DNA of 64,000 bases from Daphnia pulex (taxonomy: Eukaryota > Arthropoda > Branchiopoda > Diplostraca > Daphniidae), in NCBI RefSeq assembly GCF_021134715.1, contig NC_060018.1, positions 5,907,501 to 5,971,500 of the forward strand, given 5' to 3'. Positions 7,804 through 55,812 of this stretch are shown here, in pieces; within the stretch, counting starts at the first letter, position 1; every line of letters begins with the position of its first letter. The position numbers and the translations under genes are program-made. Below the pieces are notes generated by a model. It did not search any database, was not told where the DNA came from, and was given only the letters and a program-made list of their open reading frames with translations.

Positions 7804-10800
7804 ATGAGATTCCTCATTTTTGGATTAGTTCTTTGCAGTGTTTTGATGGTTGCACGTAAGTTTGTAATTATATTCATTAAAAATCTCTCTTGTACCTACA
7901 TTCACCTTAATTGTTGATCTTGATTCACGATTTTCTCTGCATATAAACCAGCTAATATATATTTTTTAAAATCAGATTCACAAAAAAAGATGGTGTGCTA
8001 CTATGGTACATGGGCAGTGTATCGTCCAGGAAACGGAAAATTCGATGTAGAGGACATTGATACCAACCTCTGCACCCATATCATTTACGGATTCACAGGA
8101 CTCGGAACGGACAACACAATTCAGTGTCTCGATCCATGGAACGACCTTTACGACGGCGGTGGAAAGGGAGCTTTGTATCGTTTCACTGGACTGAAAAGCA
8201 AAAAACCGTCGATGAAAGCGCTTGTCGCAATTGGGTAGGATTTTTTTATTGTAATTTTTCACTCAGAAAATATTCAACCAATTTTTTATGTGGTTTATAT
8301 GATAGCGGATGGAACGAAGGGTCCGAAAAATACTCTGTGGTAAGTTGCGAATACACCTGTTTTTTCCATTGTATTACTAAATGAAAAGTTTATTTATTTC
8401 AGATGGTGTCTGATCCTGCCAAACGAGCGGTATTTGTCAACTCCGTAGTGAATTTTATAAAAAAATTCAATTTCGACGGACTTGACTTTGACTGGGAATA
8501 TCCAGCTAATAGAGGCGGAATCCCTTCTGACAAGGTAAGCGTTCTATATGCTTTGCGCAGAAGTGAAAAGTAGTAAAAACTAGGTTTTTTTCTATAACAG
8601 CAAAATTTCGTCAGCATGATTCAAGAATTGAGGAATGCTTTTGCCCCGTACGGTTGGCTGCTTACAGCTGCTGTTTCTCCTGGAAAGTCGACAATTGACA
8701 GCGCATACGATATTCCAGCGGTAGCGAGGTAAATCACTTTATAATGGTTTCTTTCGCAAAGGTATCATATTATTAAGTGAAACACTTTTTTTTAGTAATT
8801 TGGATCAGGTCCATGTTATGACCTATGACTATCATGGGGCTTGGGACCCGTACACTGGTTTGAATTCTCCGTTGTTCTCAAACAATCTTGTCGATAAAGG
8901 CACTGACAATATCTTGAATGCGGTATGTTAGAAATCGGACAATTATTTTAGCAAAGAACGGAGCAACCCTTAAATGCTTAATTTTGTATGTTTTCCTAGA
9001 ACTGGACGATTAACTACTGGATCTCGAATGGTGTACCTCGTTCTAAAATCATTTTCGGGATGCCACTTTACGGTCGCGGATTTGTTCTTGACAATCCTTC
9101 CGTAAATGGCTTCTATGCTCCAGCCGCTCTTCCTATTCCCGATGGACCCTATACGAGGCAAAATGGAACATGGGGATACAACGAGGTAAATTCATTTTCA
9201 GAATTCTAAAGTTGCCGATTTAAGTAAAATAATCTAAAAAAATGTCTCTTCAGATTTGCGAGAAATTTAAATATGAAGCTGGATGGACAGTTGTTCGTGA
9301 CTCATGCTACATGTCTCCTTACGCAGTCAAGGGAAATCTTTGGATAGGATACGATGACCAACAGTCATTGCGGGCTAAGGTTTGAATTTATTTCTCGCGA
9401 GTTTTAAACATGCAATAAGTTATTGATGTGTTCTTTTCTTTTTTTTAACTCAAGGCTCAAATGGTTGCTGCCATGAATTTGGGCGGTGCACTTATTTGGG
9501 ACATGGATACTGACGATTTCCGCGGTCTTTGTCACGGAACAACATTCATTTTGACCAAAACAGTTATCGATGCCATGAACGGGCCAACTAACCTCATGCC
9601 AAGTCCGAGTTATCCTTGTAGAACTGATACTACATTAACAACTACATCCGTAAGCACAACTACTGCAACTCCTCCTTCAACGAAGAAAAAGATGGTGTGC
9701 TACTATGGTACATGGGCAGTGTATCGTCCAGGAAACGGAAAATTCGACGTAGAGGACATTGATACCAACCTCTGCACCCATATCATTTACGGATTCACAG
9801 GACTCGGAACGGACAACACAATTCAGTGTCTCGATCCATGGAACGACCTTTACGACGGCGGTGGAAAGGGAGCTTTGTATCGTTTCACTGGACTGAAAAG
9901 TAAAAACCCGTCGATGAAAGCGCTTGTCGCAATTGGTAATGAGTATTGACGTTAAAAATAATTATCTAAATTATTCAAGCAAAACTGATTTCATCTTTAT
10001 ACAGGTGGATGGAATGAAGGCTCTGAAAAGTACTCAATGGTTAGTCTAAAAATTTACTTGTGGTGTATTCAAAACTGCAAATAATCTTCTTTCAGATGGT
10101 TTCTGATCCAGCCAAAAGATCAATCTTCGTTAATTCCGTAGTGAACTTCATCAGGAAATATGGCTTTGATGGTCTAGATTTCGACTGGGAATATCCAGCT
10201 AATAGAGGAGGAATCCCATCTGATAAGGTAAAGTACTAAAGTTGTGTGTGTGTTTTGTGCAGGATTGAGGAGAATGTGATAAACAAAAAGGTTTTCCCCA
10301 TTACAGCAAAATTTCATCAGCATGATTCAAGAACTGAAAAATGCTTTTGCCCCGTACGGTTGGCTGCTAACAGCTGCTGTAGCTTCAGGAAAATCGACAA
10401 TTGACACTGCGTACGATATTCCAGCAGTAGCGAGGTAAATCACTCTCTAGTAGATGATTTTGCTAAATAATCTGGTTTAAATTTAAACACTTTCTTTCAG
10501 TATTTTGGATCAAGTCCATGTGATGGCCTATGACTATCATGGGGCTTGGGAGCCGTACACTGGTTTGAATTCTCCGTTATTTTCAAATCCTTATGTTGAC
10601 AAAGGAACTGACAATATTTTGAACGTGGTATGTATTTAAACTTAACATTTGCTTTCTTATTAGAAAAACAGTAACTTACGTAGCTGAATCATCAAACGCT
10701 CAATTTTGTATGTTTTCCTAGAACTGGACGATTAACTACTGGATCTCGAATGGCGTACCTCGTTCTAAAATCATCTTCGGGATGCCACTTTATGGTCGCG

Positions 10801-12250
10801 GATTTGTTCTTGACAATCCTTCCGTAAATGGCTTCTATGCACCAGCTGCTCTTCCTATTCCCGATGGACCGTACACTAGACAAAATGGAACATGGGGTTT
10901 TAATGAGGTAAGGCTATAATTATGAAGGCAATGATACAAGTTATTAAACAATTCCATTACCTTCAGATTTGCGAGAAGTTCAAATATGAATCTGGATGGA
11001 CTGTTGTTCGTGATTCGTGTTATCAATCTCCCTATGCATTCAAGGGAAATCTTTGGATAGGATACGATGATCAACAGTCATTGAGAACAAAGGTTGGAAT
11101 TCATTTTGAGGGATGCGAAAAAATTTCACATATTTGTTTTCTCTGCGATGTAGGGTCAAATGATTGCTGCTATGAATTTGGGCGGTGCACTAATTTGGGA
11201 CATGGACACTGACGATTTCCGCGGCCTTTGCTACGGAACAACATTCATTTTGACCAAATCGATTATCGATGCCATGAATGGTCCAACTAATCTTATGCCA
11301 ACTAATCCATGCGCAACAACATTTACATCAACTACCCCGACGACAACTACTACTCGGACGACTACTCCAACAACAACAACTACTCCAACAACTACTACTC
11401 GGACAACCACCCCAACAACCACTACTACTCCGACGACAACAACTACTCCAACAACAACCACTCCGACCACAACTACTACTCGGACAACCACCCCGACAAC
11501 CACTACTACTCCGACGACAACAACTACTCCAACAACAACCACTCCAACCACAACTACTACTCGGACAACCACCCCAACAACCACTACTACTCCGACGACA
11601 ACAACTACTCCAACAACAACAACCACTCCGACCACAACTACTACTCGGACAACCACCCCGACAACCACTACTACTCCGACGACAACAACTACTCCAACAA
11701 CAACAACCACTCCGACCACAACTACTACTCGGACAACCACCCCGACAACCACTACTACTCCGACGACAACAACTACTCCAACAACAACAACCACTCCGAC
11801 CACAACTACTACTCGGACAACCACCCCGACAACCACTACTACTCCGACAACAACTACTACTCGGGCAACAACAACTACAACAACTACTCCCCCAACGTCG
11901 ATTGCAACAATACATCCACCCAGTTATTACTGCAAAAGAGAAGGATATAATGCTGATCCGGACGACTGCGGTGTTTTCCATCAGTGTGTATACTACACTG
12001 AAACTGGATGGCAGGATTTCGTTCAACCGTGTGCGCCGGGAACCGGTAAGTTCGCATTACGTATAATAATTACAAAAAACATGACTATAACCCATTATTT
12101 TTAAGTTTTTCTTCCAAAATTTTACAATTTCTTATTTCTCTACAAAAAATTTCAGTATTCAGTGAGAGCATGTACACATGCGCCCAACCAGAATTGGTCC
12201 CGGGATGTGAATTCTACTACGAAAATAAAACCACGCAACAGATATCTTAA
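7804..12250 (+). CDS. Chitinase A: secreted, two GH18 modules, mucin linker, CBM14
   Basis: Predicted secreted endochitinase that hydrolyses beta-1,4-linked N-acetylglucosamine in chitin. Seventeen exons: 7804-7855, 7976-8234, 8306-8339, 8403-8534, 8601-8728, 8796-8922, 9000-9185, 9254-9379, 9455-9935, 10005-10039, 10096-10227, 10307-10434, 10501-10627, 10722-10907, 10967-11092, 11154-12045 and 12156-12250. Phases are continuous and give 1081 residues. A hydrophobic signal peptide ([17 protein letters not shown]) leads. GH18 module 1 spans about residues 22-390, with [10 protein letters not shown] and catalytic Glu near 147. A short Thr-rich linker joins GH18 module 2 at about 427-790, with the same motif and Glu near 552. 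A Thr/Pro/Arg mucin-like region runs from about 809 to 999. A six-cysteine peritrophin-A domain (CBM14) begins near 1010. Both modules keep YDYHG and WDMDTDD. The second module repeats the exon pattern of the first, so it arose by internal duplication. Confidence 0.93.
11325..11890 (+). repeat. Coding minisatellite, 84/81-bp unit, mucin-like Thr/Pro linker
   Basis: Inside exon 16 of chitinase A a unit of 84 bp (sometimes 81 bp) repeats about six times. It encodes blocks of four to five Thr separated by Pro, with one Arg per unit ([10 protein letters not shown] then TTTTTP blocks). Unit lengths are multiples of three, so array changes keep frame. The region should be heavily O-glycosylated and act as an extended spacer between the catalytic and chitin-binding domains. 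It is likely length-polymorphic. Confidence 0.93.
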
Positions 12251-14467
12251 ATCTAGCAGCAATTGTTCTATATTTCGATCAACTCTATTGGATCAATTTA
12301 CCGCAATTTTTTAAAATTTCATTTTCTTTACAGGGTGGTGGAAAATTTCTGTGAAATATATTCAATTAATTACAAGTGCATACTAAATTCTAAATGAATT
12401 ATTTTACATATTTTATGTTCAAACTTTTCTTTCCTTGTTTCAAAAATTCTTTTAACTAGATCATATTATCTGTACACTATGTACATGGCTCGTACAGTAC
12501 TTAACTCTTTTAAATTGTTTCGTATCATGTTGTTCTTGGAAAATTGAAACATAAACAAAAAGCCTTTTACACACCAATATGAAAACGAATTTAAAAAGCT
12601 ACGACGCACCAAACAAAAGTTGCAGCAAGAAACGTTGGTTGGACGGGCTATTGTTTATCCTCGCAGGACTTTTGGTTTTATGAATAGTATACTATAGTGT
12701 TTTAAGTATGAACCAAACCAAGTGTAAGTGTGTGTGTGTGTTAGTTGTTAGAAGCATGGCCGCTTCTGTTAGGAGAAACCACTGTGCCTTCCTTTTCAAT
12801 GAAAGATTATAATCAGATTCAATAAGTCATTTATTCAAAGTTATTCCTGTTTTTTTTTTAAAGAAAATGGACTTTGAGGTCGTCAGTTTGCTGAAACTTA
12901 TTGGGTTTGGGGCACGAATCACCATGTCGAACAAGTGTCGACAAGTGTGTATAGATGTGACACGTATTAGTTCTTTGATTTATAATTTTAACTAGAGGAA
13001 ATCATAAAGCCATTACTAATCTAAAAATCCATTGTGATAGGTGTTCATCAGTCAGTAAAAAAATATAGGAGGGAGATGGTAGGGCCTACAGATAAATTAA
13101 GTAGCTGAAATATATGCTGTCTATTGTCAGTGTAAGGAGTCTGTGGGAGTATTTGCTGTTTGCTACATTAGGTATTTCAGGTAAGTTCGAATTTAATTTC
13201 TTACTAAATATATAGTAAAATTGACCTATGTGAAATTGTTCCAATGTGAAATGTGAAAAAGTGTTCCTGTCAAGTGTCTGACATTTCTCTTAAGCTCATT
13301 CTTATCCATTGAAATTTATACAATCCTTATTAAAGGATGAAATCTGACATTAACAAATATTTGTTAGTGATTTACTGTTTTACTTTAACAAAAGGTCATC
13401 AGAATTTGATTTTAGTTAGTGTGATTGGTCTTATCATTTTCTTAAGGTCAGGTATAATCTACAGTATGATCTCGTGTAATAAATATGTCTTCAGTTTTAC
13501 GCGCGGTAGTCAGCTAGGCGCTGGGAAAATATCGGTGAAAATATTTGAGTCTGCTTAAAGTATATAGTGTACCCGATTAATTCTGATGACATTTTTACGG
13601 GGGATTATTTGTTATTGCTTTCATAGGATCATCAAGCGATAGACATCGAACGTCAGAAAGAATTGTGATACGTACCCTTGCACCCCCTTACATTACCCAG
13701 TAACCTATATTTCTTTAACCGAATCAGCTGATATGTCTATCCCTTTCGGCATAGAAGCTATGGATTTTTACAGCTACGGTTAACTTTGCACAGCATTTTT
13801 TATTTGCGAAACAACGTACCCTTTATAGTTTAATTGTAATACTAAGTAATGACGTGATCAGTTAATCTTCTGGAATATGTTAAGCCTTAAAGTCATAAAA
13901 TAAGATATCAAGGCAACCATCAAGGTCTGAAATCACTAAATGATTGCTGAATATCCGTATATCCTCTTTCCCTTACAGGTGTTTGGGTGCATTCCAATAG
14001 ATAAGGTTATTTCATACTGTGACGACATGCAACGAAATAAAAATTGGATGAAGAAAAGCGATGCAATTCTCTCACAAAGGACCGCTGGGATTTGAATCCT
14101 TCTCCTTTTCCCATATTAACTATATCCGACCATATCTTCTCGATCTTAACTGTAAACAAGTGTGAAAACACCTGAAAGAGGCAATAATCTTGAAATTTCA
14201 CGGGAATAAAAAGGGCATTATTTGTGCCGTTACACACAGTCGTCAATTTGAAATCACGTGGATAAGAAATCCCTTCACAACAGACCGACAGAATTTTTTC
14301 GTTATACTTTGTCGAGTGGATAGGCTGGTAAGTAAATTTTTGCTCAAATATTAAATCAGTAAAAATAATTGTCATCGTTGCCTATTGTAGGTTTTTAACG
14401 CCTGATATATTGGCATTAAAGTTTAAAATAACATTGTATTGTTTAATTCACAGATTTTACTAGAAAA
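12251..14467. other. Intergenic region between chitinases A and B
   Basis: AT-rich DNA with the 3' UTR of chitinase A at its left end and the promoter of chitinase B at its right. It contains a short GT run near 12725-12741. Open frames are short and match nothing I recognise. Confidence 0.5.
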
Positions 14468-16983
14468 ATGAAGGTAGTAGGCTTATTAGCGTGCTGCGTA
14501 TTTGCAGTTGCTATTCACTTTTCGAATGGCGCTGCAGTTGAACCTAAAGGTAGGGCAAAGTTCGTTATGTACTTTAAGAAATCAAAATTTTAAATTACGA
14601 TCTCTGTTTGATAATAACGAAGCTGGAGGAAAGAGCATGGTGTGCTATTACGGAAGCTGGGCGGTCTATCGGCCGGGAAACGGCAAGTTTGACGTTGAGC
14701 AAATTGACCCGTTCCTCTGCACGCATATCATCTACGGATTCACTGGACTTGGTACCGATAACACTATGATACCTTTGGATCCTTGGAACGATCTCTACGA
14801 CAACTGGGGCAAAGGAGCTTTCCTAAGATTCACCGGGTTGAAACAACAAAACCCGAATTTGAAAGCCCTGATAGCCATTGGGTTAGTTACCGTATATTTA
14901 ACATTTAAAAATGTTGTACATAAAATTGATTGCGGCAAATTTTTTATTTTCAGAGGATGGAACGAAGGATCAGAAAAATACTCAAGAGTAAGTTTCGTTT
15001 ATAGACCGATAAATTTCATAAGACGTAGCCAAATTATATTTTTGTTTCGCTCTAAAAGATGGTGTCTGACCCCGCAAAAAGAGCTACATTTGTTAACTCG
15101 GTGGTTAATTTCATTAAGAAATATAACTTTGATGGCTTGGATTTTGACTGGGAATACCCTGCAAATAGAGGCGGTCTTCCTTCGGACAAGGTAAATCTTT
15201 ATTTTCCGATTTCTCAAATGATAGTGGGTTTAATTTGGAGACGAACTAATCTTTGATTTCATTTTCAGCAAAATTATATCAGTATGATTCGCGAATTGAA
15301 AAATGCATTCACGCCATACGGTTGGTTGCTTACAGCTGCTGTTTCTCCTGGAAAGTCGACAATTGATTCTGCGTATGATATTCCGGCCTTAGCAGGGTAA
15401 ACGATCAAGCGCAATACAATTAGTTTCAGTTTAGTGCATTTCTACGCTTTTTTTAGTATCCTGGATCAGGTTCATGTCATGAATTATGATTACCACGGAA
15501 GCTGGGAAACTTATACTGGATTGAATGCGCCTTTGTACGCCAACCCCAACTACGATCTTACAATGGATAACCAATTTTTGAATGCGGTGAGTCTAATCTA
15601 AATGTAGTAACAATTTCTTCAAAACTTAAAGTAATAACTAAATGTTTCTATTTGACGATAAAACGGACACAGAACTGGACAATTTATTACTGGCTTTCAA
15701 ATGGAGTACCCCCCTCTAAGATTATTATGGGTATGCCACTTTACGGTCGCGGATTCCAGCTAGATAATTCAGCTAAAAATGGTTTCTATGCAAGCGCTGC
15801 TAATCCTATCCCGGCTGGACCGTACGTATATTATTTAAATCATTTAAAAAAATGGAAATAATCAGACATATAAAAATATTACTTGCGTATAGTTACACAC
15901 AACAAGCCGGCACATGGGGATACAATGAAGTAAGCAAAATAGCTGGGAAAAAAAGCGCTGTGATATTCCGTGCATTAATTGTTATCGATTTCGTTTCTCA
16001 CTTAATCAGATTTGCGAGAAATTCAAAGCCGACGGTACTTGGACTGTGGTTAGAGACTCTTGCTATCAAACGCCATACGCCTACAAGAACAATTTATGGA
16101 TTGGCTATGATGACGAGCAATCTTTAAGGAATAAGGTAGAATTTTTGTATTTATTTAGTTTTTTTAGCTACAGCAAATTGACATTTGTTTCCTTCCAACT
16201 AAAACAGGGTAAGTATATCGCGGCCATGAATCTAGGAGGCGCTCTTACCTGGTCGATAGAAACTGACGACTTCAGAGGATACTGTCATGGAACACCTTTT
16301 ATCTTGACAAAATCGATTGTTGAGGCCATGAACGGACCTACAAACCTCATGCCAACTAACCCTTGTGCATCAGGTTCCCCACCACCTCCTACACCACCTC
16401 CTATTGATACTACTACTAAGTCTACTACTATCCAAATTACTACTCCTAATAAAGTTACTACAACTACAACAGCCACTCCTAGTACAACTACTACTAAAAT
16501 AAGTACTAACCCGACTCCCACAATTACCTCGACTCCACCCTCGACTCCTTCTTGCACTTGTGCAATTCCTACTGGCACTCCAGCTCCCCCAGTAACCACT
16601 ACGGTACGCAACAAAATCTGACGAGAATTCAATAAGAACTTATTTTATATAACCAATATGTTTTGGCAACATGTCAGCAGGCATCATCAGGTGGAACGAC
16701 TTCGGAACCTAATTCCGTTTGTAAGAAAGAAGGTCTGAACGCCGATCCAAATGACTGTGGGATATTTTACCAATGCATAGCCCAAGCAAGTAACGGATGG
16801 CTTGTGTACACCCAGCACTGTGCAGCGGGAACGGGTAAAACAAAATTTTAAAGCAATGTCGGCACTCGTCAGTTGTTCCACAACTTACATTTCAATATCT
16901 CGTTTCCTTTAGTTTTCAATGCCAAGATAGACGTTTGCGACTTTCCACAAAAGGTTCCAGGATGCGAGAACTATTACGGATAA
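14468..16983 (+). CDS. Chitinase B: secreted, single GH18 module, linker, CBM14
   Basis: Predicted secreted chitinase, second in the array. Twelve exons: 14468-14549, 14623-14881, 14954-14987, 15059-15190, 15269-15396, 15457-15586, 15673-15821, 15893-15929, 16010-16135, 16208-16603, 16681-16834 and 16913-16983, giving 565 residues. The signal peptide is MKVVGLLACCVFAVAIHFSNG. The GH18 module holds [24 protein letters not shown] with the catalytic acid, MNYDYHGSWE and WSIETDD. A Pro/Thr/Ser linker without the regular minisatellite of chitinase A precedes a six-cysteine CBM14 domain beginning CKKEGLNADPNDCG. Compared with A and C it has an extra intron inside the GPY(T) codon region, at 15822-15892. 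The exon 11 start could instead be 16678, because a CAGCAG acceptor is present. It shares the intron inside CBM14 with chitinase A. Confidence 0.92.
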
Positions 16984-17539
16984 CAAAACAAAAGACAGAA
17001 GACTATTTCATCAATACATTTTAGGATTCTAGTAATGAAGCAAAAAAATGTGTCACATTTCCATTGTTTCATTGTAGTACAGTATGTATTCTATTCTGCA
17101 TTAACGTGATTTTTTTTTTTTAATAAGTTTGTTTCTATTGTACAAAAAACGCAATTAACATATATAATTGGCGATAAATTTGCGATTTTCTGCTCGGAAC
17201 TACTTTACTTTATACTTATACATCATTTTTAGTCACTGGCCTATTTTGAAAATCGTTTCTCGTTACTTCATAAAAAAAAATAGTTCTTCAACTACAATCA
17301 AAAGGTGCCGCCTAATAAAAAAAAAAGGAACTTGACATCTGAGTTCACGGAGAGTAAATAAATTACACGAAACAAATCTATGCAGTACTTTTCCTGTTGC
17401 GCGTTAAAATGGTGGATGAAACTGCACCGACAAAGCCAAGCTTATCTTGCCGATCATAAAGCTTTCTCATCATTACATAGGCAATTGTAAAACTATTGCA
17501 CACTTCACACATAGTTACCAGCATGGGGAATTAGTAATC

Positions 17540-18243
17540 TATGGAACGCCATAGGGACAAAAAATTAACTGCTCCAAAGTAAGCATTAATTTAGTGCTCT
17601 CCAAAAATAAGTGCTCAAAATTTAGTGCTCTCTCGCATCCGCCCTCTAGCGGGCGGTTCAAAATATTTCGCTATCAATGAAAATATTGACAATTGAATAT
17701 CGATTAAAATCTAATTTTCGAATACATCAGCGTCGATCAGCGTCTTGCCCCATCACCTCCGCCACCACCCTTCTGTCCTGTGATTTTTATCGTGTCTTTT
17801 TATGATTCCATCTTTGTCGAAGTAATCTTCGTGACTAGTACTTCGTCGATACTTTTTCCGACTTTTTCTTCTTCCCCAGCAGAAGTAACAATATTATTAG
17901 TCCTGGCATGTTCCGATGTTCGGCATCGCCGGAATCCGGAATGGATGGATGACGGATTTCAGGATTCTCAGAAGACATAAGGGGTTGCCGGGTTGGCAAA
18001 GGTGATGAGGCAAGAAAAAGGGCAAGCATTCGAATTTAGAAATCCCATAGTTAAGCTAAATATTGGATTTTAATCGATAGCTTCTAACTCCTCTCACAAG
18101 CAGGCGGAGAAACGAAATATTTTGAACCGCCCGCTAGAGGGCGGATGCAAGAGAGCACTAAATTTTGAGCACTTATTTTTGGAGAGCACTAAATTAATGC
18201 TTACTTTGGAGCAGTTAATTTTTTGTCCCTATGGCGTTCCATA
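17540..18243. mobile_element. Non-autonomous DNA transposon (MITE-like), 131-bp terminal inverted repeats
   Basis: The left arm 17540-17670 and right arm 18113-18243 are almost perfect reverse complements, beginning tatggaacgccatagggac. Outside the arms both flanks read gtaatc (17534-17539 and 18244-18249), consistent with a 6-bp target-site duplication. Shifting the boundary one base outward gives a 4-bp taat reading instead. Each tip contains a small palindrome, ctatgg/ccatag. The internal 440 bp has no transposase-like frame, so the element would need help to move. The near-identity of the arms suggests a fairly recent insertion. I cannot assign a superfamily. Confidence 0.9.
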
Positions 18244-18249
18244 GTAATC

Positions 18250-20021
18250 CAGCCTGTAGAATATTAACCTTCAGTGATCAACCAACAAATTGTGAGTTGC
18301 AATATTCATTGGTTTGACAGGCTTTGCACCTGACCGTGACACACTGGCATTCATTTCATACCCTTGGTTTTGATATCTCGTTTACGGTTGCGCCAGGATC
18401 AGCGTCAGAAAAACTCTCGATGGTTATGATGAGATTCTGAACCGGGCTGATACCGTTATTTTGTTTAGCGTTGCACAGTCTAATGTTTACATTTGCGCAG
18501 TTAAGTTTATGCAACACCAATACACAGAATGTCGGAATGCCGCTTAATTATCAAAGCTAATTTCAATGAGCCTCACACCTATGTGTTGACCATTGTACAC
18601 CTGTGCACATTACAGCATTACGCAATATGGGAAATACCCGACACTTGGAGACAAGTCTTTTCACACCATGTTTACAAAAATAGGCCTACTTTGTTACCTG
18701 TACACTATAAACTTGCTTCCAATATTCCGTAGCGGTAAAAACTCAACTCAAAAAGCCCTCGAGGCAATCCATAATATCTCTCTGAGGAGTGAACCGCACA
18801 AAATATATGCAGAGAAAATTTTCTCCCCTAACGAACGGTTTTAACCCCATTCCTTACCCAGACTTGAAGAAGTCTGCGTTACTCTTTCGAAGTAGAAAAA
18901 AAGAAAAGAAAAAAAGAAAGAGCTTTCTAGAATTTGTTTCGTAACTTTAGGATAAGGGATAGGTGAGAAAAAAAGGTGTTTTTGTGCAGACTGCAGAACT
19001 TCACCTTCAAGTCGTTTGGTACGTAACATGATTTTGTTTTGACATTTTTTTTTTAATTCTTCTTCGTTTTATTCGTGCGGCTACAAAAATCGAAATTTGA
19101 AAATTAGGTCATATACTTGTATAAACGTCTGATTTTAACAGGAAGCCAATTATTTGGTAAAATTCTTTTCGTGAGATATACAACTAAATTTTATTGGCTT
19201 ATATTGTTTCACATCAACAATATCCAAATCCCCTTGTACCTTGCTGATAAACAGACTAATTGAACTTCTCTTTCGGGATTCAGCGTTGGTCAATTTGTTT
19301 TTTTCCAGAACGTGCGGATCTTGTCATACTGTGGATTATTTACTTTCGTGTAAACATAATGTTGCAAGCAATTAAGCAACGGGAAAAGGCGATTCCCAAC
19401 AAATACGCTCGCAAGAGAATAGAATTTAGTTGAAAAATCGTTTCCTAAGATAAGTCACGAAACTGTGATCCTTTTAGCCATTGTAGTCTCGTACTTATTG
19501 AACGGATTTCGCCTCTGCTGGATTGAATAGTATTTAGGTAGAAAACAAGGTCAATTGTCAACAAAGCGCAGACCATAATTATTACTAAGTCCGAAATTTC
19601 CCTTGTAGAGACGGATTAATCTCAAATTTGAGGCGTCATTTATCACCGAGCAGCGCCCGGATGGTGCCGGCTGCCCTGTATCTCAATCAGCTTGACGTAA
19701 TGCTACGGTGTCCTATGACACTTTACTGCGGCACAGATTGTGCAACCGTGTGTTTCACTTGTGTAAAAAGTCAACAGTTTGACCTTTACTTTTCTCACCT
19801 TCTCAGCGGCATATAAAGAAAGGAAACACAGTGCATTTCTTCAGAGTCTTATTGAATCAAACAGCAGAGAGTTTCGTGCGCATCTGAAATCAGAATATCC
19901 ACATCTATAACCACTTGAATAGAAGGTGAGAAACCTACCATAACATAATAATTAATACTGGGTCTTACATTTTGTATTTGTATTATTTTCTTTTTAAAAT
20001 AGCCGCCAGGCCAAATAGGAT
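18250..20021. other. Intergenic region upstream of chitinase C
   Basis: No coding gene is recognised. The right part carries a TATA box at 19812 and a probable untranslated first exon near 19840-19925. That exon ends at the donor aagGTGAGA, and a 3' acceptor lies at aaaatAG near 20002. The 5' UTR of chitinase C is therefore probably split by an intron. Confidence 0.45.
19812..19818 (+). promoter_or_regulatory. TATA box upstream of chitinase C
   Basis: TATAAAG lies about 30 bp before a plausible start site at 19835-19850 and about 210 bp before the start codon. A likely 5' UTR intron (about 19927-20003) separates the first exon from the coding start. Confidence 0.5.
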
Positions 20022-22412
20022 ATGAAAACTCTATGGAGAATAGTTGTTTTGGTGGCTTTAGCCCACCAGGTCATGTCGCTTGCCATAGAAAAAGGTAATT
20101 AATTAACAGCGTAAAATGTGTGATAATTCATTCCTTGAAAAGATAAGTAGCTAAATATTCGTTTGTTCAAAAAGCGGCCGAGAAAAAGAAGATGGTTTGT
20201 TATTACGGTAGCTGGGCAGTATATCGTCCCGGTAACGGCAAGTTCGACGTCGAAAATATTGACCCGTTCATCTGCACACACATAGTCTACGGTTTTGCTG
20301 GTTTGGGATCAGACAACACGATCAAACCCCTCGACCCCTACAATGACCTTTACGAAAACTGGGGAAAAGGAGCATTCCTTCGCTTCACGGGACTGAAGAA
20401 GAAAAATCCTGAACTCAAAGCGCTCATTGCTATCGGGTATTAGGGACTCACATCTTTGCAAAAGAATTACTTAATAATTCATGATTTGTTTCGCTTAATT
20501 TTTTACAGTGGATGGAACGAAGGATCGGAGAAATATTCATTGGTAAATACTACCTAATAGTCTATTGCTATGGGTTGGTTTTCTAGGATCTCTCCTCTTT
20601 ATTAGATGGCATCTGATCCAGCAAAGAGAGCAATCTTTGTAAACTCGGTGGTGAACTTTCTTATAACCTACAATTTCGATGGGTTTGATTTCGATTGGGA
20701 ATACCCTGGAAATCGAGGTGGTGCCATAATAGACAAGGTATTGCCCAATGGAACCTCATTCAAACAAAAATTGACCTTTCATGTATGACGTTTTATTCGA
20801 CTTGAGTGCAGATCAACTTCGTGCTTTTACTTCGTGAACTGAAGTCGGCGTTTGCTCCATATGGTTTTCTTCTTACCGCAGCTGTGTCTCCCGGCAAATC
20901 AGCAATTGATTCCGTATGTCTTATTATCTGTTAAACATTTATTTTAATTTCTTAATTACCTTTTTTTTCTCGCGTTTCTGTAGGCTTATGACATTCCTGC
21001 AGTGGCAAGGTAATTTATAATAAAACTACTAGAACAAATTTTTTTTCTTGTGTTCTTAATGATGATTATTTGAATTTAGTGCTTTGGATCAAATTCACTT
21101 GATGGCGTACGATTACCACGGGAGCTGGGAGACCTACACAGGATTGAACGCGCCCTTGTACGCCAATCCCAGTGTGGAAAGCGGAAGCAATTTGTTGTTG
21201 AACGTGGTAAGTAACTGGACAACATTTTGCGCACAGTTATTGCGAATTAAAAATCATGATTAATGTATTTTTGTTGTCATGACATTTTTAGAACTGGACT
21301 GTAAACTACTGGATTTCAAATGGTGCTCCTGCTTCCAAAATCATTTTGGGTATGGGTCTGTATGGCCGTGGCTTCACGTTGGCATCGCCGACTCAAAACG
21401 GTTTCTACGCTTACGCTCCGCAACCGATTACCGCTGGACCTTACACTCGGGAATCTGGAACTTGGGGTTACAACGAGGTATGCAGCTCTTGAAATACATC
21501 ACAGCTGAAATGTTCAAAGTTCCTAAAATAATTCCATCCCTTTAGATTTGCGAAAAGTTTAAGGCCGATCCTTCGTGGACTGTCGTTCGTGACTCCTCTT
21601 ACCTAACACCATATGCATTCAAATCTAGCCAATGGATCGGCTACGACGATCAACAATCTCTTACAATCAAAGTAAGCTTTACAAGAGATGATGCTGTTCT
21701 ATCTATTTATATAACACTGTCAATTTCACTTACTAGGCCCAGTATGCTAGTTCGATGAATTTGGGAGGAGCTATGGTCTGGTCGATGGAAACGGACGATT
21801 TCAGGGGTCTCTGCCACAATGTACCTTTCATCCTTATTAAAACCATCTACGAATCTATGAATGGACCTATCGTCACTCCTTCACCAGTTACTACTACCTC
21901 GACATTGTCGACAACAACAAAAGCCACAATTACAACCACTACAACCCCAAGAACCACGACGACCACAACAACCCCTGTGACGACTACAACTACTAAAATC
22001 ACATCATCACCTTCTACCCCCAGTACAACTACTCAGGGCACCACTATTTGCGGTCCTACGAGTTCTATTACAACTACAGTAATGACATTTAAAAATATTT
22101 TGCCTCGCATGGATGTGTTTATTTCACATCTTTTTTTAATTTATCGAATGACAGAAAAGTCCATCAATTTACACGACATTGCCACCAATAACCACGACAG
22201 CCGGAGCACCTCCACCGAATACGCTTTGCAAAAGTGAAGGCCTCAATCCAGATCCCAATGACTGCGGAATCTTCTACACTTGCATCAACAACGGCCAGGG
22301 TGGATGGACGATTTACACGCAGCGATGTGCCAATGGAACCGCATTCAGTGACGCACTGAACACGTGTACCTATCCAAATCAGGTCTTAGGATGTGAAAAT
22401 TATACCGGTTGA
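20022..22412 (+). CDS. Chitinase C: secreted, single GH18 module, Thr linker, CBM14
   Basis: Predicted secreted chitinase, third in the array. Eleven exons: 20022-20094, 20175-20436, 20509-20542, 20606-20737, 20812-20913, 20984-21009, 21080-21206, 21292-21477, 21546-21671, 21737-22078 and 22155-22412, giving 555 residues. The N-terminus MKTLWRIVVLVALAHQVMSL is a signal peptide. The GH18 module carries [26 protein letters not shown] with the catalytic Glu, MAYDYHGSWE and WSMETDD. A short Thr-rich linker precedes the CBM14 domain (CKSEGLNPDPNDCG). The conserved exon after DGxDFDWE is split by an extra 70-bp intron at 20914-20983. The CBM14 domain lies in one exon, without the intron seen in A and B. 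Confidence 0.92.
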
Positions 22413-23512
22413 TTGAAATCGCGCCACATTATGTGCCACTATTTTTTCCGATTTATCTGATTAATTTTTTTAAACAAAGAATATACGATAACAAAAATCA
22501 ATTTAAACAAAATTTTCTGTAGTCAAAAAAGTAAATTTGTATAATCACATGATTTAATTTTTTAAATAGTTAAATAAAAGCAAATTACAATCCATTCAGT
22601 TTGTACTTCTAGGTTTTACCGTGTCAAGTACAAATGCTAACTACAGATTATAATTAAGAAACCTCTAAAATAAAGTAACAACTGAAAAATAAAATCTAAA
22701 GCACATAGTTGCGCATATTTGCTGCGGCGCAGTACGACAACGAATAGCGACTCGGTGATAACGATAAGTAATCATCGTAAGCCGTCGTAAGCCGATCAAT
22801 CACCTTGAATGGAAATCAACGACAGTATATTACAATCTTTCCACGCAGAAAGTTGTATTTTAATTACCACTGCCAATTTTGTATTTTACTTTCAATATTA
22901 AACCAGTTCGTTGTTTTGTATAGGAAAGAGCCACATCGAGTAAGGTTTGAATTAATTCTTGTATACTGTTTACTTATTACATAACTATTAATGCCTTAAG
23001 CCAATAGTGTGGAGTAAAGTTAGTTGTATAGAGTTCCTTCTTGTCTAGACATGAAATTTGGTTTTCTTACCCTTTCCTCGCCTTTCCTTATTTAAAAGAA
23101 AACAAATATGCCGAAAAAAATGGGTTGCAGGAGCCCATTTCCATTTACAAAAAAAAATATCCCAAATAGTGAAGTAATTACATTAGTTAGTCTGTGTTCG
23201 GAGTCGGCAGAGGTATGGTGTAGATAAGTGACGAAGACTCAGCGTAAAACTTTACATTTCAACGTTTATCCGATTGCATTGCTATGTTATGTCGAGAGAT
23301 TGAAACATCTACACATGCAATATTTATTCAGTTATCTTGTAACGTAATCATAACTGTCTGAACGAGTTGAATGTATACAGCACAGTATACTTTTGTAATT
23401 TTCATTAATTCCAGTCCATTCTGATTTTCATTTCTATCTTAATATTTCGGAAAGCGCTCATAATTTCTCTTTTATTTCAAGAATTGGAAAGGCCTGATTT
23501 GTCAATTAAAAA
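22413..23512. other. Intergenic region between chitinases C and D
   Basis: AT-rich DNA with a probable polyadenylation signal for chitinase C (aataaa at 22573-22578). No open frame resembles a known protein. Confidence 0.5.
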
Positions 23513-25833
23513 ATGAAGTTTTCATTTGCTGTGCTAGTTCTCGTAGCCACTCTACATGTATCTGCTTCCTTATCCGTCGGGTCGAAAGGTAATACTCTTG
23601 TTTGTTGTAATTGTTTTATGCGGAAACTCAGATGAGACAAAAAAAAATATATGGTATTTTTGTTAATTCGAATAGCCGATAAAAAGAAGATGGTTTGTTA
23701 CTACGGCAGCTGGGCTGTCTACAGGCCAGGAGCCGGAAAATTTGACGTTGAAGATTTGGATCCCTTTATTTGCACTCACATTATTTACGGATTCGCTGGA
23801 CTCGGTTATGATAACACCATCATCTCACTAGATCCGTACAACGATCTGCCGGAGAACTGGGGCAAAGGTGCGATGGTACGTTTCACCGGACTCAAGAGCC
23901 AGAATCCTGAACTGAAAGCAATTTTGGCTATTGGAGGATGGAATGAAGGATCGGAAAAGTATTCCAAGGTTCGAGTTTTTATCGCCACTTTAATGAAACA
24001 TTTATTAGAAGTTTGAATCATTAAGTTGACCTCATACATTAACAGATGGTCTCTAGTCCTTCCGAGCGAGCCAAGTTTACGTCTTCTGTCGTAGAATTTC
24101 TCCTCAAGTATAATTTTGATGGCTTAGATTTTGATTGGGAATATCCTGCAAATAGAGGTGGTGCCATAATAGATAAGGTAAGGTCTACTTTATACGGATG
24201 GATCAATGGTTAGGCCTACTTATTTAATATATATTTTTTCAAAGGAAAATTTCATTCGTATGATTGAAGAGCTCAAAACTGCTTTCGCCCCACACGGTTT
24301 GATGCTGACAGCCGCCGTCTCCGCTGGAAAAACAACAATTGGTCTCACACATTTCTTTAGTTTACAACTATAATGAAGTATTTATTTTTTTGTTTTCATA
24401 CCATTGCAGATACTGGATATGATATCCCATCAATGACTAGGTATACAAATAATTTGTTTAGTGTGAACTTCAAAAAGACATATAAATGGCTTAATTTACT
24501 ATATTGATGGTGCATGTGCATGAAAATATTACAGGATATTGGATCAAATTCATATCATGGCATATGATTTTCATGGAGCATGGGAAACTTTTACTGGTCA
24601 CAACTCACCGGTATTAATTTAAAAAGTTGTTTTTTGCAACAGTTTTTTAACTTCTTTTTTTTTTGCGTTAAGCTTTATGGCAATGAACTCGATTACGGAG
24701 AATTCGTCGACTTCAATCAAGTATGTTGCGTTTCAGATATATGTTGACATTTTTGGGTTTTAAAAGAAACTATCTTTCTGGCTGAACGTTAAAAAAGGAT
24801 TTCGCTGTCAACTATTGGATTGAAAATGGAGCTGATCCTTCCAAACTGATTTTAGGAATGGGTCTATATGGACGAGGATTTGTTTTGAACAACCCAGCTG
24901 ACAACGGTTTCTACGCTCCTGCAAATCAACCGATCTCTGCCGGGCCGTAAGTATCCTAAAATTAACAACAACACATACTGCAGACATACAGCTGTAACAA
25001 AAATATTCTGCACAGATACACTCGCGAGGCCGGAATATTGGGATATAATGAGGTATGTTTGTGACAGGACCCACGTAATCGCAAAAATTCTTTCCTGTAA
25101 CATAAACTCGTTTCCTAGATTTGCGAGAAATTTGCTGCTGAGCCAGGCCTCTGGACTGTAGTCGTTGACCCCTCTTACATGTCTCCTTACGCTTACAAAG
25201 GCAACCAATGGATAGGCTACGACGACCAAAATTCTCTTAAGACTAAAGTATTAATGAAACTCTTTGTTGACACTCTGTGGATTAAGCGAAATTTGAACAG
25301 TTCATTTTTATAGGCTCAATATGCTGCTTCGAAAGGATTAGGTGGGGCCATGGTATGGTCGGTTGAAACGGATGATTTCCATGGCACTTGTCACGGAAAC
25401 AACTTTATATTGGTAAAAACAATCTACGAGACTCTGAATGGGCCCATCGTTTATCCATCTCCACCTACCGGTTCAACAGGAGAGTTTACCACCGAGAAAT
25501 ACTCAACCACTACGGTAAGTGATGTGAAAAACTTAATTCCTAAATAGATTCTTTAAATATTATTCTATTTTTATTTGATATTTTATACTTATCTGGCAGA
25601 GCACTCGTCCAACAACCATTACCCCTCCACCAAATCAAACTTGCCAGTCAGAGGGATACTTCCGTGATCCGAATGATTGCGGAAAATACTATCTTTGTGT
25701 GGCAAACGGAAGTGAATGGGTCATTTACAATTTTGAATGCGGAGCTGGAACTGTTTTTGATCCATCTACCAACAACTGCAATTTCCCCTATAACGTTCCC
25801 GGCTGCGAAAATTATCCTGGAAAAGACAATTGA
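23513..25833 (+). CDS. Chitinase D: secreted, single GH18 module, short linker, CBM14
   Basis: Predicted secreted chitinase, fourth in the array and the most diverged. Twelve exons: 23513-23588, 23676-23968, 24046-24177, 24245-24341, 24410-24440, 24535-24610, 24673-24720, 24798-24946, 25016-25052, 25119-25247, 25314-25514 and 25600-25833, giving 500 residues. The signal peptide is [20 protein letters not shown]. The GH18 module holds [24 protein letters not shown] with the catalytic Glu, [10 protein letters not shown] and WSVETDD. The linker is short, with only a few Thr residues, and CBM14 begins [14 protein letters not shown]. It lacks the intron after IAIGG found in A-C, but has extra introns after GKTTI, after HNSP and inside GPY. 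An aataaa lies at 25866, shortly after the stop. Catalytic motifs are intact, so it is probably active. Confidence 0.91.
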
Positions 25834-51344: not shown

Positions 51345-51580
51345 GTTATGGCGACCGTAGAACTCCACCGACAATAGAACCCCAATATTTAAAATAATTT
51401 TAAAAATTTCTTTGTATGCGACAGTAGAACTCCAAAGACATAAGATGATAAGAACTTATTTTTTAAATATTATTTTAAAAAAACCGACAATAGAACTCCA
51501 GTGCCCGACAGTAGAACTCCACTACGCGACAATAGAACTCCAATAAATTCTTTAATTATTTTCATGTTCGACAGTAGAAC
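51345..51580 (+). repeat. Dispersed 15-bp motif, about seven copies
   Basis: The motif cgacaRtagaactcca occurs about seven times in 240 bp with irregular spacing, once truncated and with small variants (gcgaccgtagaactcc, ttcgacagtagaactc). It lies a few hundred bases upstream of the YIPF/ADAT3 start. It is either a degenerate minisatellite or a cluster of binding sites. Confidence 0.7.
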
Positions 51581-51907
51581 TCTATTGAATTTTAAATATT
51601 TTAAATGTGACTAGGGGCCTATGACTATGGGCCTATGGCAGAGAAAATTTCCGTGTTTTGGGGCAGGAAAAGGGAATTTTTGTAATTAGTTCTATATTAT
51701 TTGACCGCTAGATGGCGTTGTGGCGAAACGTTTTTTTTTTTTTTAACATTTTTTTTGTGACCCTTTCGGCGTGCCATAGTGACTTACGCCATCTATAGGA
51801 GAATTTCGTATTAGAAGGCCAGCGGGAATTCAGCCGACGCAATATTTTGACGTTAATTGTGAGACTTCGAGAATCGAGATAGCCTCTACGTGGCACTAAA
51901 AATAAAA

Positions 51908-54693
51908 ATGGATTTCACGGTAAAATAATGTTGTTATCAAACTCGTTTGGATTCTGATTAATTTACTTCTTTCAAATTGTTTTTGATAGAACAAAGCAAA
52001 TGATGCCGAAGCTCTACTGCAATTCCAAGGTGATTATTTTGAATTTAATATGTGTTTACACTACATTACTTGAAAAGATTTGTTCTCATTCCAATGGATA
52101 ATAATTTGTGTTATGTCAATTTATACTACAATATGGCAGATTTTGGAATGGGAAGTACAGCTACAGGAAAACCACCTCCGTATGAGCAAACCCACAACTT
52201 CACCGATTATCCCTCATCTCATGTTGACATTGATGAGGTAAATACTTAAATATTTATATGTTTTAGTTGTTTGTTACTTGGGAAATAATGATTAGGTTCC
52301 ACCTGCCAAGAGGAGTCGTAAATCCATTGAACATCCAATTGCCATTTTGAGCTTTGCAACCATGAACCCGATTCCTGTTGTTAATGTCTGGGTAGCAAAA
52401 ATTGTTGAAAAAAAGGCTACACAGGCTCTTGTGAGAGGCCTGAGTGAAATTCAACCTTCTTTGCATCATTTGAAGCTAGTAAAAAATCAGGGAGGAGAAT
52501 TAAAAATTATTATTGGTTTAGCGGAAAATTCAGCTGTGGAGTGCAAACAAAAACTATTCTCTCAAGGTTTGAAGTTAGAAGGATTAGACTTGTTAGAAAA
52601 CTGGGAAGAGATCGAAGTTTCCAAATTTCTTCCACAAACAAGGTCTCAATATGATATGGCTAGCAAACTCTGGCCATGTAATTTTCATGAGGACAAAACC
52701 ATTGAGAGGCTTCTAACAGGTAGCTGGTTCAGTTCCCAACAACTTGAAATGAAATTTAAATGGATGCAGCTCAGTTTAGCTATCAGTCACCTACCAGACA
52801 ACGTGTTTACGTGGTATGAGAATTGCGGAGTTAAATTAGCTGAAGATTTGTTTAACGGGAGCAATCAAGTTGATCGCTCCACTAGCGCCTGCATGGGACC
52901 ATCGATGGGTGTAGTAGTGGTTAACCCTTCTGGAGATGCCGTTATTGCTGCCGCTTCGGTGCGGAAGGCTTTACATCCCCTTCATCATGCTGTAATGATT
53001 GCTGTCGACCTTGTGGCTAGAAGTCAAGGAGGTGGAGCTTTACCTTTAACCGAGGGATTAAATGTTAAAGAAGAGTCCATTATTGAGCCGAATTCTTATT
53101 TGTGTACAGATTGCGAAATTTATCTGACCCATGAGCCATGCATCATGTGTTGCATGTCTCTTCTCCATTCACGAGCAAAAACTGTATTTTTTATCGAAAA
53201 CTGTTCAGGGGGAGGGTTGGTTTCCGAAGCGCGACTTCACACCTTGCCAACAATCAATCACCGTTTCCAAGTTTTCAAAGGCTTAGGACCTGTCTAATTT
53301 TTATGTGTAAAAAAAATGTGACCCAATAAATTAGACCTTTTGCTTCAAAATGTTTTTCTGTATTTTGTCTCTTTGAATCCCTTTGTATAGTTTACATTAA
53401 TTAATTTATTCTATCTAAAACAGGATCAAACTCAAGGCCCAACCCAAACGGCCCAAAGCTCTCAAGATAATGGCCCTTCTATGCTAACGTTTGCTTACTA
53501 CCAGAGATACTTTGACGTCGATACGCCACAAGTGAAGGAACGATTGATATGGTCTTTCGTCCCCCGTCCGTCACGGGATACACTCACGCATTACATTCGA
53601 CCGTCGCCCGATCTATACGGTATCTTCTAGCTAGTGACGCCTCTAATCGCCCCTAATATTTTTAATTGCTATGCTGATTGCCAGGTCCTCTTTGGATTTG
53701 TGTTACTCTGGTATTCTGCGTAGCGATTATGGGAAATATTGCAGATTATTTACATTCGGGTGGAGAGGGTCAACATTGGAGATACGACTTTCGCAAAGGT
53801 GAGAATGTTGTTGTTTGAGCACAACGAAGAATTTCGACTGCTGCCTTAAACTAAAGATTAAGATGTCGGGTGCTAAACAACTTGATCTTATTTACTTTTT
53901 CTTCTCTTACGTAAATCAGTCTCTATCTCGGCATCGACAATCTTCAGTTACGCTCTGCTCTTACCATTAGTCTTGTGGCTTCTCTTGTGGTGGCGCCGGA
54001 AAGAAGGTGATCAATCCCCACTTGGTTTCATCGAGATTGTTTCTCTATACGGCTACTCATTGGCCATCTATATCCCGATATCGGTAGGTTTACTTCGATA
54101 ATATATTAAGTACACGCTGTAATATTTACCCTTACCTTCCTTAGGTTCTGCTGACGATTCCTTTCCCTTTCATTCAATGGACATTGGTGATTGTTGGAGC
54201 AGCGCTATCCGGTTCGGTGTTGGTTTTCTCTTTATGGCCTCCACTCAGTGCCAGCCAGCGAGGAATTGCCGTCATTATTCTCTCTGCTGTTTTGGCATTC
54301 CATTTCTTATTAGCCGCCGGTCTTCAGCTTTATTTTTTTCGCTATTCCAATGATGTAGTCATAGTTTCCAACAGTGGTGGAACATCACATGGTCATTTAA
54401 GGGCTGTTGACTCTTCAACACTCGATAAAGTTACAGAACTACAGCCCCTGAGTTTAATTCGTGCCGTTGAGGATTATTCGCCATCTGACACCACCAATGC
54501 AGAAACTACCGTTGCGAAAACCACTACAATTGGCGTGGATTTCCCAGCTACTGCAATTATTAACAATACTAAAACTGAGCAAGAAATTATTAAATCTATC
54601 CACATCAAAAATACTACTAGCGATTTTGCACCCAACCAAACAATATCTAAATTGTTAACCAAGATATTGGAAGAAAGCACAACTGTAGCTTAA
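51908..54693 (+). CDS. YIPF1: YIPF1/YIPF2-like Golgi membrane protein (Yip1 domain)
   Basis: Yip1-domain proteins are multi-pass membrane proteins of the ER-Golgi system that bind Rab GTPases. Exons: 51908-51919, 51990-52029, 52140-52237, 53424-53619, 53685-53798, 53920-54083 and 54145-54693 in phase, giving 390 residues. An acidic, soluble N-terminus (MDFTNKANDAEALLQFQ) leads to the family signature PSPDLYGPLWICVTLVFCVA, which starts the first membrane span. Further hydrophobic segments follow: SYALLLPLVLWLLLWW, a span ending LAIYIPIS, LLTIPFPFIQWTLVIVGAAL, and AVIILSAVLAFHFLLAAGL. A hydrophilic Thr-rich tail of about 110 residues makes it longer than human YIPF1 (about 306). The 1.2-kb intron 52238-53423 contains the ADAT3 coding exon. 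Confidence 0.88.
52362..53297 (+). CDS. ADAT3: ADAT3: non-catalytic subunit of tRNA A34 deaminase
   Basis: ADAT3 pairs with ADAT2 to convert adenosine 34 to inosine in tRNA anticodons. The cytidine-deaminase fold shows HHAVMIAVDLVARSQGGG, where Val replaces the catalytic Glu of active deaminases, as expected for ADAT3. The zinc-binding EPCIMCCMSLLHSRA and the C-terminal NHRFQVFKGLGPV are also present. N-terminal family features include SFATMNPIPVVNVW. The reading frame stays open upstream to a splice acceptor at 52295 and reads VPPAKRSRKSIEHPIAILS in the same phase as the end of YIPF exon 3 (52237). A spliced product sharing YIPF's first three exons would have 383 residues; starting at the first internal ATG gives 311. 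AATAAA at 53325 supports its own 3' end inside the YIPF intron. Confidence 0.92.
   Translation: MNPIPVVNVWVAKIVEKKATQALVRGLSEIQPSLHHLKLVKNQGGELKIIIGLAENSAVECKQKLFSQGLKLEGLDLLENWEEIEVSKFLPQTRSQYDMASKLWPCNFHEDKTIERLLTGSWFSSQQLEMKFKWMQLSLAISHLPDNVFTWYENCGVKLAEDLFNGSNQVDRSTSACMGPSMGVVVVNPSGDAVIAAASVRKALHPLHHAVMIAVDLVARSQGGGALPLTEGLNVKEESIIEPNSYLCTDCEIYLTHEPCIMCCMSLLHSRAKTVFFIENCSGGGLVSEARLHTLPTINHRFQVFKGLGPV
53325..53330 (+). terminator. Polyadenylation signal for ADAT3 inside the YIPF intron
   Basis: AATAAA lies 28 bp after the ADAT3 stop codon and about 90 bp before the YIPF exon 4 acceptor. Use of this signal would end the ADAT3 transcript; skipping it by splicing would give the YIPF mRNA. 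Confidence 0.6.
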
Positions 54694-54879: not shown

Positions 54880-55611
54880 TCAAGCTGAAGCGCATCGCAA
54901 CATCCACTCTTTTGCCTGGCCACTGTTTAGTTTATCGCCTAGTAGGTTGGATAAGAAAATATCGGCGAGTGATTTAACTCCGGGTAGAGGTCCTACTAGC
55001 CATTTACGTCCGTCAGGATGACCCAGTTGATTTTGAATTCGCCGTATCAACATCAAGAACTTGGAATCGCCAGACTGAATGCAACCTTCCCATGTATCCA
55101 ACCAATCGTCGATCTGTGAGCAAATGCTTGAATCAAAATTTTCATACATTGCACAATCTGTCCAGGATTCAAGAATGCGGGCCAGTAGACGAGCGATGGC
55201 GGCTTCACCGTGGATATCTCCGTTAGGCCGATTGACAATCTTGACGATGGGATGGCGTCCTATTGGCTTCCAAATCCAAGTAAGATTGCATTGGTTGTCA
55301 ATTCGACTGCCATCTGATACAGTCAAGTTCGGCCATTGCATCAAATCGGTTGGACAAGCACTTGCCAAAGATGAATGCTGATGAACGGTCACTATGGTAC
55401 GGGCATCTCCTCGAGCTACCAGGAGTCTCACCAAGGTTTGAATTGATCGTGGTGGATATTTCGGATCAGCCTCTATGACAAGAGTTAATTTTTCTTCAGT
55501 AGTTTTGCCTTGTCTTTTTAACTTCTTCACTTCAGTTTCAATGCCACGTAGTCGAGTCATGATCGAATCCATGCGATTCTCCAAGTCCTGCAAATCGTCT
55601 GTTTCCTTCAT
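54880..55611 (-). CDS. AIMP2: AIMP2 (p38), scaffold of the multi-tRNA synthetase complex
   Basis: AIMP2 is a non-enzymatic scaffold of the cytosolic multi-aminoacyl-tRNA synthetase complex. The frame has a predicted coiled coil (LENRMDSIMTRLRGIETEVK) followed by thioredoxin-like and GST-C-like parts. The GST-like part includes WIWKPIGRHPIVKIV, GEAAIARLLARILESW and KSLADIFLSNLL, matching AIMP2 in order. From ATG 55611 it gives 243 residues, shorter than human AIMP2 (320), because the usual N-terminal lysyl-tRNA-synthetase-binding peptide is missing. A 3' splice acceptor (cccttccag) ends at 55628, just upstream of the ATG, so an upstream exon may exist. Only about 200 bp separate it from the FARSA stop codon on the same strand. 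It converges with YIPF, leaving about 190 bp between stop codons. Confidence 0.85.
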   Translation of the reverse strand: MKETDDLQDLENRMDSIMTRLRGIETEVKKLKRQGKTTEEKLTLVIEADPKYPPRSIQTLVRLLVARGDARTIVTVHQHSSLASACPTDLMQWPNLTVSDGSRIDNQCNLTWIWKPIGRHPIVKIVNRPNGDIHGEAAIARLLARILESWTDCAMYENFDSSICSQIDDWLDTWEGCIQSGDSKFLMLIRRIQNQLGHPDGRKWLVGPLPGVKSLADIFLSNLLGDKLNSGQAKEWMLRCASA

Positions 55612-55812
55612 TTCAGAACCACGGTGTCTGGAAGGGAAAAACAAGTTTTGCTTGTAAGGATACCTTATAAAAATCAATAACTTTTAACTTGAATCAACAA
55701 AACCAAATAGTTTAAAATGAAAGCTGTGTTTCACTTGAGAAAACTTATTATGAAATGTTAAGGTATTTAAAAACAAATAAAATAAACAAACATATGACAT
55801 GGTGGATGTAAG

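Follow-up and report, generated by a model that had tools for sequence, protein, structure and literature searches.

The human membrane-protein gene SCAMP4, paired with ADAT3, and the genes for VAChT and ChAT, which lie on the same strand, are the closest described systems with which the locus analysed here can be compared. A 2008 survey gives ADAT3/SCAMP4 as a human promoter-sharing pair, with N/A in place of co-expression data for the pair, and gives + strand positions on chromosome 19 for both, 1856416 and 1856372, which are taken here as transcript starts 44 bp apart (accessible text of PMC2568002). This confirms, as promoter sharing, the tie between human ADAT3 and SCAMP4 that the first-pass annotation of our sequence had brought up. 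In the available part of a study of AML, ADAT3 tops the list of genes co-expressed with SCAMP4, with a value of 0.81 (PMC8382833). At the cholinergic gene locus, VAChT has a single-exon coding region inside the first intron of ChAT, alternative splicing contributes to both messages, there are multiple promoters and both proteins belong to one pathway; the available portion of that source describes no shared coding sequence (PMC3053374). Two more human pairs, RBM12/CPNE1 and FASTKD5/UBOX5, give different proteins from one promoter, and in-frame sharing of an N-terminus is not described for them in the accessible text of the survey (PMC2568002). More generally, the available sections of two further papers report that nested intronic genes, parallel ones too, are common in animals (PMC8527503) and that mammals and flies favour opposite-strand nesting (PMC8467205). 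Finally, alternative last exons and intronic polyadenylation isoforms arise when either a proximal terminal exon and its poly(A) signal are used or splicing goes on further downstream, and the isoforms in the accessible description of InPACT are noncoding or truncated transcripts.

Here we analyse a locus of the crustacean Daphnia pulex in which an ADAT3 frame is nested on the same strand within an intron of a YIPF1/2-type gene, whose product is an unrelated membrane protein of the Golgi. The window, that is, the whole stretch of DNA that was analysed, comprises 64,000 nt of contig NC_060018.1; all coordinates are positions in it and all features lie on the + strand unless stated. As in the human ADAT3/SCAMP4 pair, the same tRNA deaminase subunit is paired with a membrane-protein gene, but the Daphnia host is YIPF1/2 and three coding exons would be common in frame. 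As the host gene differs, the arrangement is likely to be an independent parallel to the human one, a judgement drawn from two species only. As with VAChT, a single-exon coding region sits in an intron of its host and splicing would contribute to both messages; unlike at the cholinergic locus, the two products are unrelated and a single promoter may serve both. Like RBM12/CPNE1 and FASTKD5/UBOX5, the locus would yield different proteins from one promoter, with the difference that the N-terminus would be shared in frame. The choice would be that of an alternative last exon, whereas the proximal product would be a complete, unrelated enzyme subunit. The arrangement in Daphnia was not treated in the literature covered, as judged by titles and the beginnings of abstracts in a collection that mostly leaves subscription journals outside.

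The re-derived model of the host gene has seven exons, GT-AG at every intron and a 390-aa product with a Yip1 domain at residues 97-266 (Pfam PF04893, E=2e-15); we assume subfamily 1/2 from its resemblance to human YIPF1/2. Exon 1 (51908..51919) carries the ATG and codons 1-4, ends in phase 0 and is followed by the donor GTAAAA. Exon 2 (51990..52029) encodes ...LLQFQ and exon 3 (52140..52237) carries on with DFG, which together presumably resemble the N-terminal motif of human YIPF1; GAG closes exon 3 in phase 0, and the GTAAAT donor follows at 52238. Intron 3 (52238..53423, 1186 nt) houses the ADAT3 frame, and exons 4-7 (53424-53619, 53685-53798, 53920-54083 and 54145-54693) lead on to the Yip1-domain product. 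When YIPF residues 1-273 were searched against the genome (E<=1), five matches were returned, each of them an exon at this locus.

The nested frame is identified by homology. The putative ADAT3 terminal exon (52296..53297) comprises 333 codons and a stop, with an N-terminal and a pseudocatalytic deaminase domain. In phmmer searches of PDB sequences it matches mouse ADAT3 (7nz7_B, E=1.5e-31) over residues 15-151 and 202-330 and yeast TAD3 (7bv5_C, E=1.9e-15) over residues 228-304, the deaminase part, and the Pfam domain dCMP_cyt_deam_1 is found in the exon. An HAV motif is present, HHAVMIAVDLVAR pairing with mouse LHAVMVCIDLVAQ, and the PCxxC motif HEPCIMCC pairs with mouse REPCVMCA; we take the HAV valine to be the pseudocatalytic residue and PCxxC to supply zinc ligands. 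The available text of another study equates mouse V128 with human V144 (PMC12404733), so human ADAT3 is numbered 16 residues further than the mouse protein. Homology and gene model together uphold the nesting on the same strand within YIPF intron 3, and the poly(A) signal that had been noticed inside the intron is there as well, an AATAAA at 53325..53330 shortly 3' of the ADAT3 stop. Given 333 codons without an intron, a retrogene origin of the exon is possible.

ADAT3 gave a single match (E<=0.001) in the genome searched, which comprised 133,188,837 bases in 13 contigs; no second copy was found by this homology search or by a PF00383 profile search. The seven matches of the profile, classified by eye, are the ADAT3 exon, two pieces of one dCMP-deaminase-like gene, one other dCMP-like sequence, two cytidine-deaminase-like sequences and one ADAT2-like deaminase at G000:C7:6648740-6648967, which lies above the PF00383 cut-off and was read as ADAT2 by eye from its HAE/PCIQC. 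No relatives were found in viral, bacterial and archaeal contigs (20 pattern matches in one collection, 0 in the other), collections that say nothing on conservation.

Our preferred reading, to which we assign a probability of roughly 0.65, is that the locus is one transcription unit in which two alternative last exons encode unrelated proteins under the YIPF1/2 promoter. Transcription would begin at that promoter, and exon 3 would be joined either to a weak proximal acceptor, at 52295 or at the in-phase 52310, or, when the proximal acceptor is skipped, to the strong acceptor at 53423, giving YIPF. In the first case, cleavage after AATAAA 53325 would produce an ADAT3 mRNA with a YIPF-derived N-terminal tail of 50 residues, common exactly over 45 to 50 residues depending on whether the first codons after the acceptor are ADAT3's own. 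We infer the junction of exon 3 with ADAT3, the use of the host promoter and of the exon 1 ATG, and the use of the poly(A) site. The 50-residue extension itself is probably passive and flexible; in mammalian ADAT3, too, a long stretch precedes the first strand.

The geometry of the proposed junction is as the first-pass annotation had described it. The ADAT3 frame is shut upstream by TAG 52293-52295, which is the acceptor itself (AG 52294-52295) and ends a putative intron of 58 nt (52238..52295) with a GC content of 0.21. Phase 0 applies both to the end of exon 3 and to the start of the ADAT3 exon. The joined product would have 383 aa, 50 of them common with YIPF, with a predicted junction peptide around SSHVDIDEVPPAK. 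The in-phase continuation from exon 3 is therefore real as a matter of coordinates, but as an argument it is near chance, because 959/2000 dinucleotide shuffles of 52244-52361 contain an in-phase AG with an open frame, 45 nt or more from the donor.

What carries the preferred reading is the sequence between the acceptor and the earliest ATG in frame within the exon (ACCATGAAC, 52362..52364), which is residue 23 of the ORF and would serve as the start codon under a promoter of ADAT3's own. Between the closing TAG at 52293-52295 and position 52362, a scan of the ADAT3 frame found no ATG. Local alignments with mouse ADAT3 start at ORF residue 15 (at residue 16 in one, with 7nz9_B) and run ungapped across the ATG at residue 23; a BLASTP alignment with yeast Tad3 (26.6 bits), whose query sequence was matched to 7bv5_C, also starts at residue 15 and is ungapped through NVW. 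Just 5' of the ATG, the eight codons IAILSFAT (52338..52361) resemble both the mouse and the yeast protein, with BLOSUM62 scores of 7 and 8, respectively. Their summed score was reached by 3/749 noncoding, 37/13263 base-shuffled and 74/20000 residue-shuffled 8-mers, nulls that flatter the match since the residues were picked because the local alignments already reached them. Furthermore, the 22 codons at 52296-52361 have a coding score of 7.5 in frame and of 2.9 and 5.0 in the other frames; in windows that overlap and stem partly from the training data, a score of 7.5 was equalled in one of 51 noncoding windows, and 33% of 73 coding windows scored no higher. The shift from intron-like to exon-like base composition is best placed at 52294, with 13 positions in 52275-52299 lying within one bit.

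With homology from residue 15 and no in-frame ATG 5' of 52362, an upstream exon must give the start, unless a non-AUG codon is used; the start codon of ADAT3 is thus probably supplied by a spliced upstream exon, as far as the sequence allows one to say. Through donor 52238, the in-frame ATGs available are that of exon 1 or, given an inner promoter, those at 52094, 52133 and 52148. A start in the shared exons is favoured by the donor of exon 3, which is the region's best and to which the exon 1 ATG reads in frame. It ranks first among GTs in 51850-52270, followed by the donors of exon 2 and exon 1, in a ranking where all three donors belonged to the training set; its score is reached by 10/3404 + strand GTs in the window, its own site counted, and its leave-one-out score of 8.6 is the highest of 18.

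These scores come from a matrix trained on 18 hand-curated introns placed by frame, six from YIPF, nine from a gene that we take to be FARSA and three from one that we take to be IDH. A splice-site model trained without supervision on 264 kb was dropped, having settled on compositional noise and scored the YIPF sites poorly too. By the matrix, the weakness of acceptor 52295 is the main result against the shared-exon reading. With a score of -1.3 it falls short of every one of the 18 curated acceptors (-0.7 to 7.7, leave-one-out), and 2040/3381 + strand AGs in the window match or exceed it. Pyrimidines make up 0.35 of positions -20..-4, whereas each of the 18 curated introns reaches 0.53 or more there; T makes up 0.65 of positions -40..-21, a larger share than in any of the 18. 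A single yUnAy branch-point match falls within the final 45 nt, 43 nt upstream of the acceptor; 17/18 curated introns have at least one. The 58 nt of the putative intron are 1 nt below the shortest curated intron, 17 of the 18 measuring 59-144 nt and the remaining one being the 1186-nt host intron. The neighbouring in-phase AG 52310 scores -0.6. The YIPF acceptor 53423 is the top of the 74 AGs in intron 3 (9.1 in training, 6.5 leave-one-out), so the weakness of 52295 is also compatible with a proximal exon that is used part of the time. The proposal that one promoter yields two proteins with a common N-terminus hence holds up in part: homology, coding score and composition 5' of ATG 52362 speak for it, and the acceptor, weaker than any curated one, speaks against it.

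The strongest competitor, unlikely in our judgement, is a promoter of ADAT3's own, located within the span of YIPF introns 2 and 3, with translation from ATG 52362; the codons upstream of it would then be 5' UTR, open by chance. Besides the acceptor, weak by score, pyrimidines and branch point alike, this explanation can draw on the A at -3 of ATG 52362, on a short leader that would be clean, with no ATG between 52288 and 52362, and on the 401/2000 shuffles of 52230-52361 in which 22 codons before the internal ATG are open. The off-phase AG 52351 scores 2.3, better than 52295; splicing to it would make all that precedes ATG 52362 leader, and it could suit a message that starts there. However, the mouse and yeast alignments and the coding score reach upstream of 52362. 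AlphaFold, run on the lone 333-aa ORF as a single sequence, gave a poor model (mean pLDDT 32) with a first strand, at low confidence, at residue 29; if the model is right, a start at ATG 52362 would leave about six residues before that strand. In T. brucei ADAT3, according to the available part of the structural report, a well-resolved linker of residues 4-12 leads into the N-terminal domain, which occupies residues 13-140 (PMC9643335). This linker speaks for the preferred reading, though with limited force, because an internal start shortens the lead without removing it.

A second promoter, close to YIPF intron 2, would keep the splice from exon 3 to ADAT3 and place the start at ATG 52094, 52133 or 52148, so that exon 3 would be shared and exons 1 and 2 would not. 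All three ATGs are in frame to donor 52238, yet use of the host promoter is simpler and we regard this variant as improbable. As an observation on the host gene itself, these ATGs, within or just past YIPF intron 2, run in frame through exon 3 and permit a shorter alternative N-terminus for the YIPF or the ADAT3 product. Trans-splicing of a spliced leader to AG 52295, which would make ADAT3 a downstream cistron of the YIPF pre-mRNA, is very improbable: the accessible text of a study of the amphipod Parhyale mentions spliced leaders being trimmed from transcripts (PMC5111886), but a leader without ATG would leave the conserved upstream codons still lacking a start.

Other elements of the window were noted alongside. 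Upstream of the YIPF/ADAT3 start, 51352-51584 contains seven copies of CGACARTAGAACTCYA with at most two mismatches, where 0.10 are expected. Genome-wide, CGACARTAGAACTCCA, a 16-mer counted by exact match, has 448 copies, 218 on one strand and 230 on the other, and its reversed control has 0. Six further stretches, chosen for clustered matches, hold 7-10 copies each, with recurring spacings of 17, 21, about 42, 51 and 64-66 nt and a switch of orientation in 4/6 stretches; the copies are a dispersed element of iterated units. On the - strand, an exon at 54880-55627 with a Thioredoxin_16 domain (E=5e-11), which we take to be AIMP2-like, lies directly behind the last exon of what we take to be FARSA; a likely acceptor at about 55628 suggests that an upstream exon may supply its missing N-terminus. 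At 7924-24016, five ORFs have the repeated start MVCYYG(T/S)WAVYRPG...FDVE, some followed by long threonine-proline repeats; presumably they are tandem GH18 chitinase-like genes.

Returning to the proposed shared transcription unit, conservation of the KRSRKSIEHPIAILS codons, of the in-phase exon 3 and of the nesting in other Daphnia, branchiopods and insects would date and support the arrangement. In its broadest form, the proposal is that YIPF and ADAT3 have the same 50 translated residues at their N-termini and draw in competition on one pre-mRNA, and that, in animals, genes for membrane proteins of the secretory pathway have captured ADAT3 at least twice, SCAMP4 in humans and YIPF here; taken as a whole we consider this unlikely. 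If the competition holds, each ADAT3 message would cost one YIPF message. Repeated capture could reflect a regulatory reason, the coupling of wobble-inosine capacity to secretory-pathway expression, and a second, different host of ADAT3 would let comparison test whether capture was repeated chance or selected. For annotation, the preferred reading would mean that a single-exon ADAT3 model beginning at the internal ATG is mis-started. For Daphnia, it would mean that the only ADAT3 found in the genome relies on the promoter of its host as well as on a splice choice that is weak, and that its N-terminus is a foreign tail.
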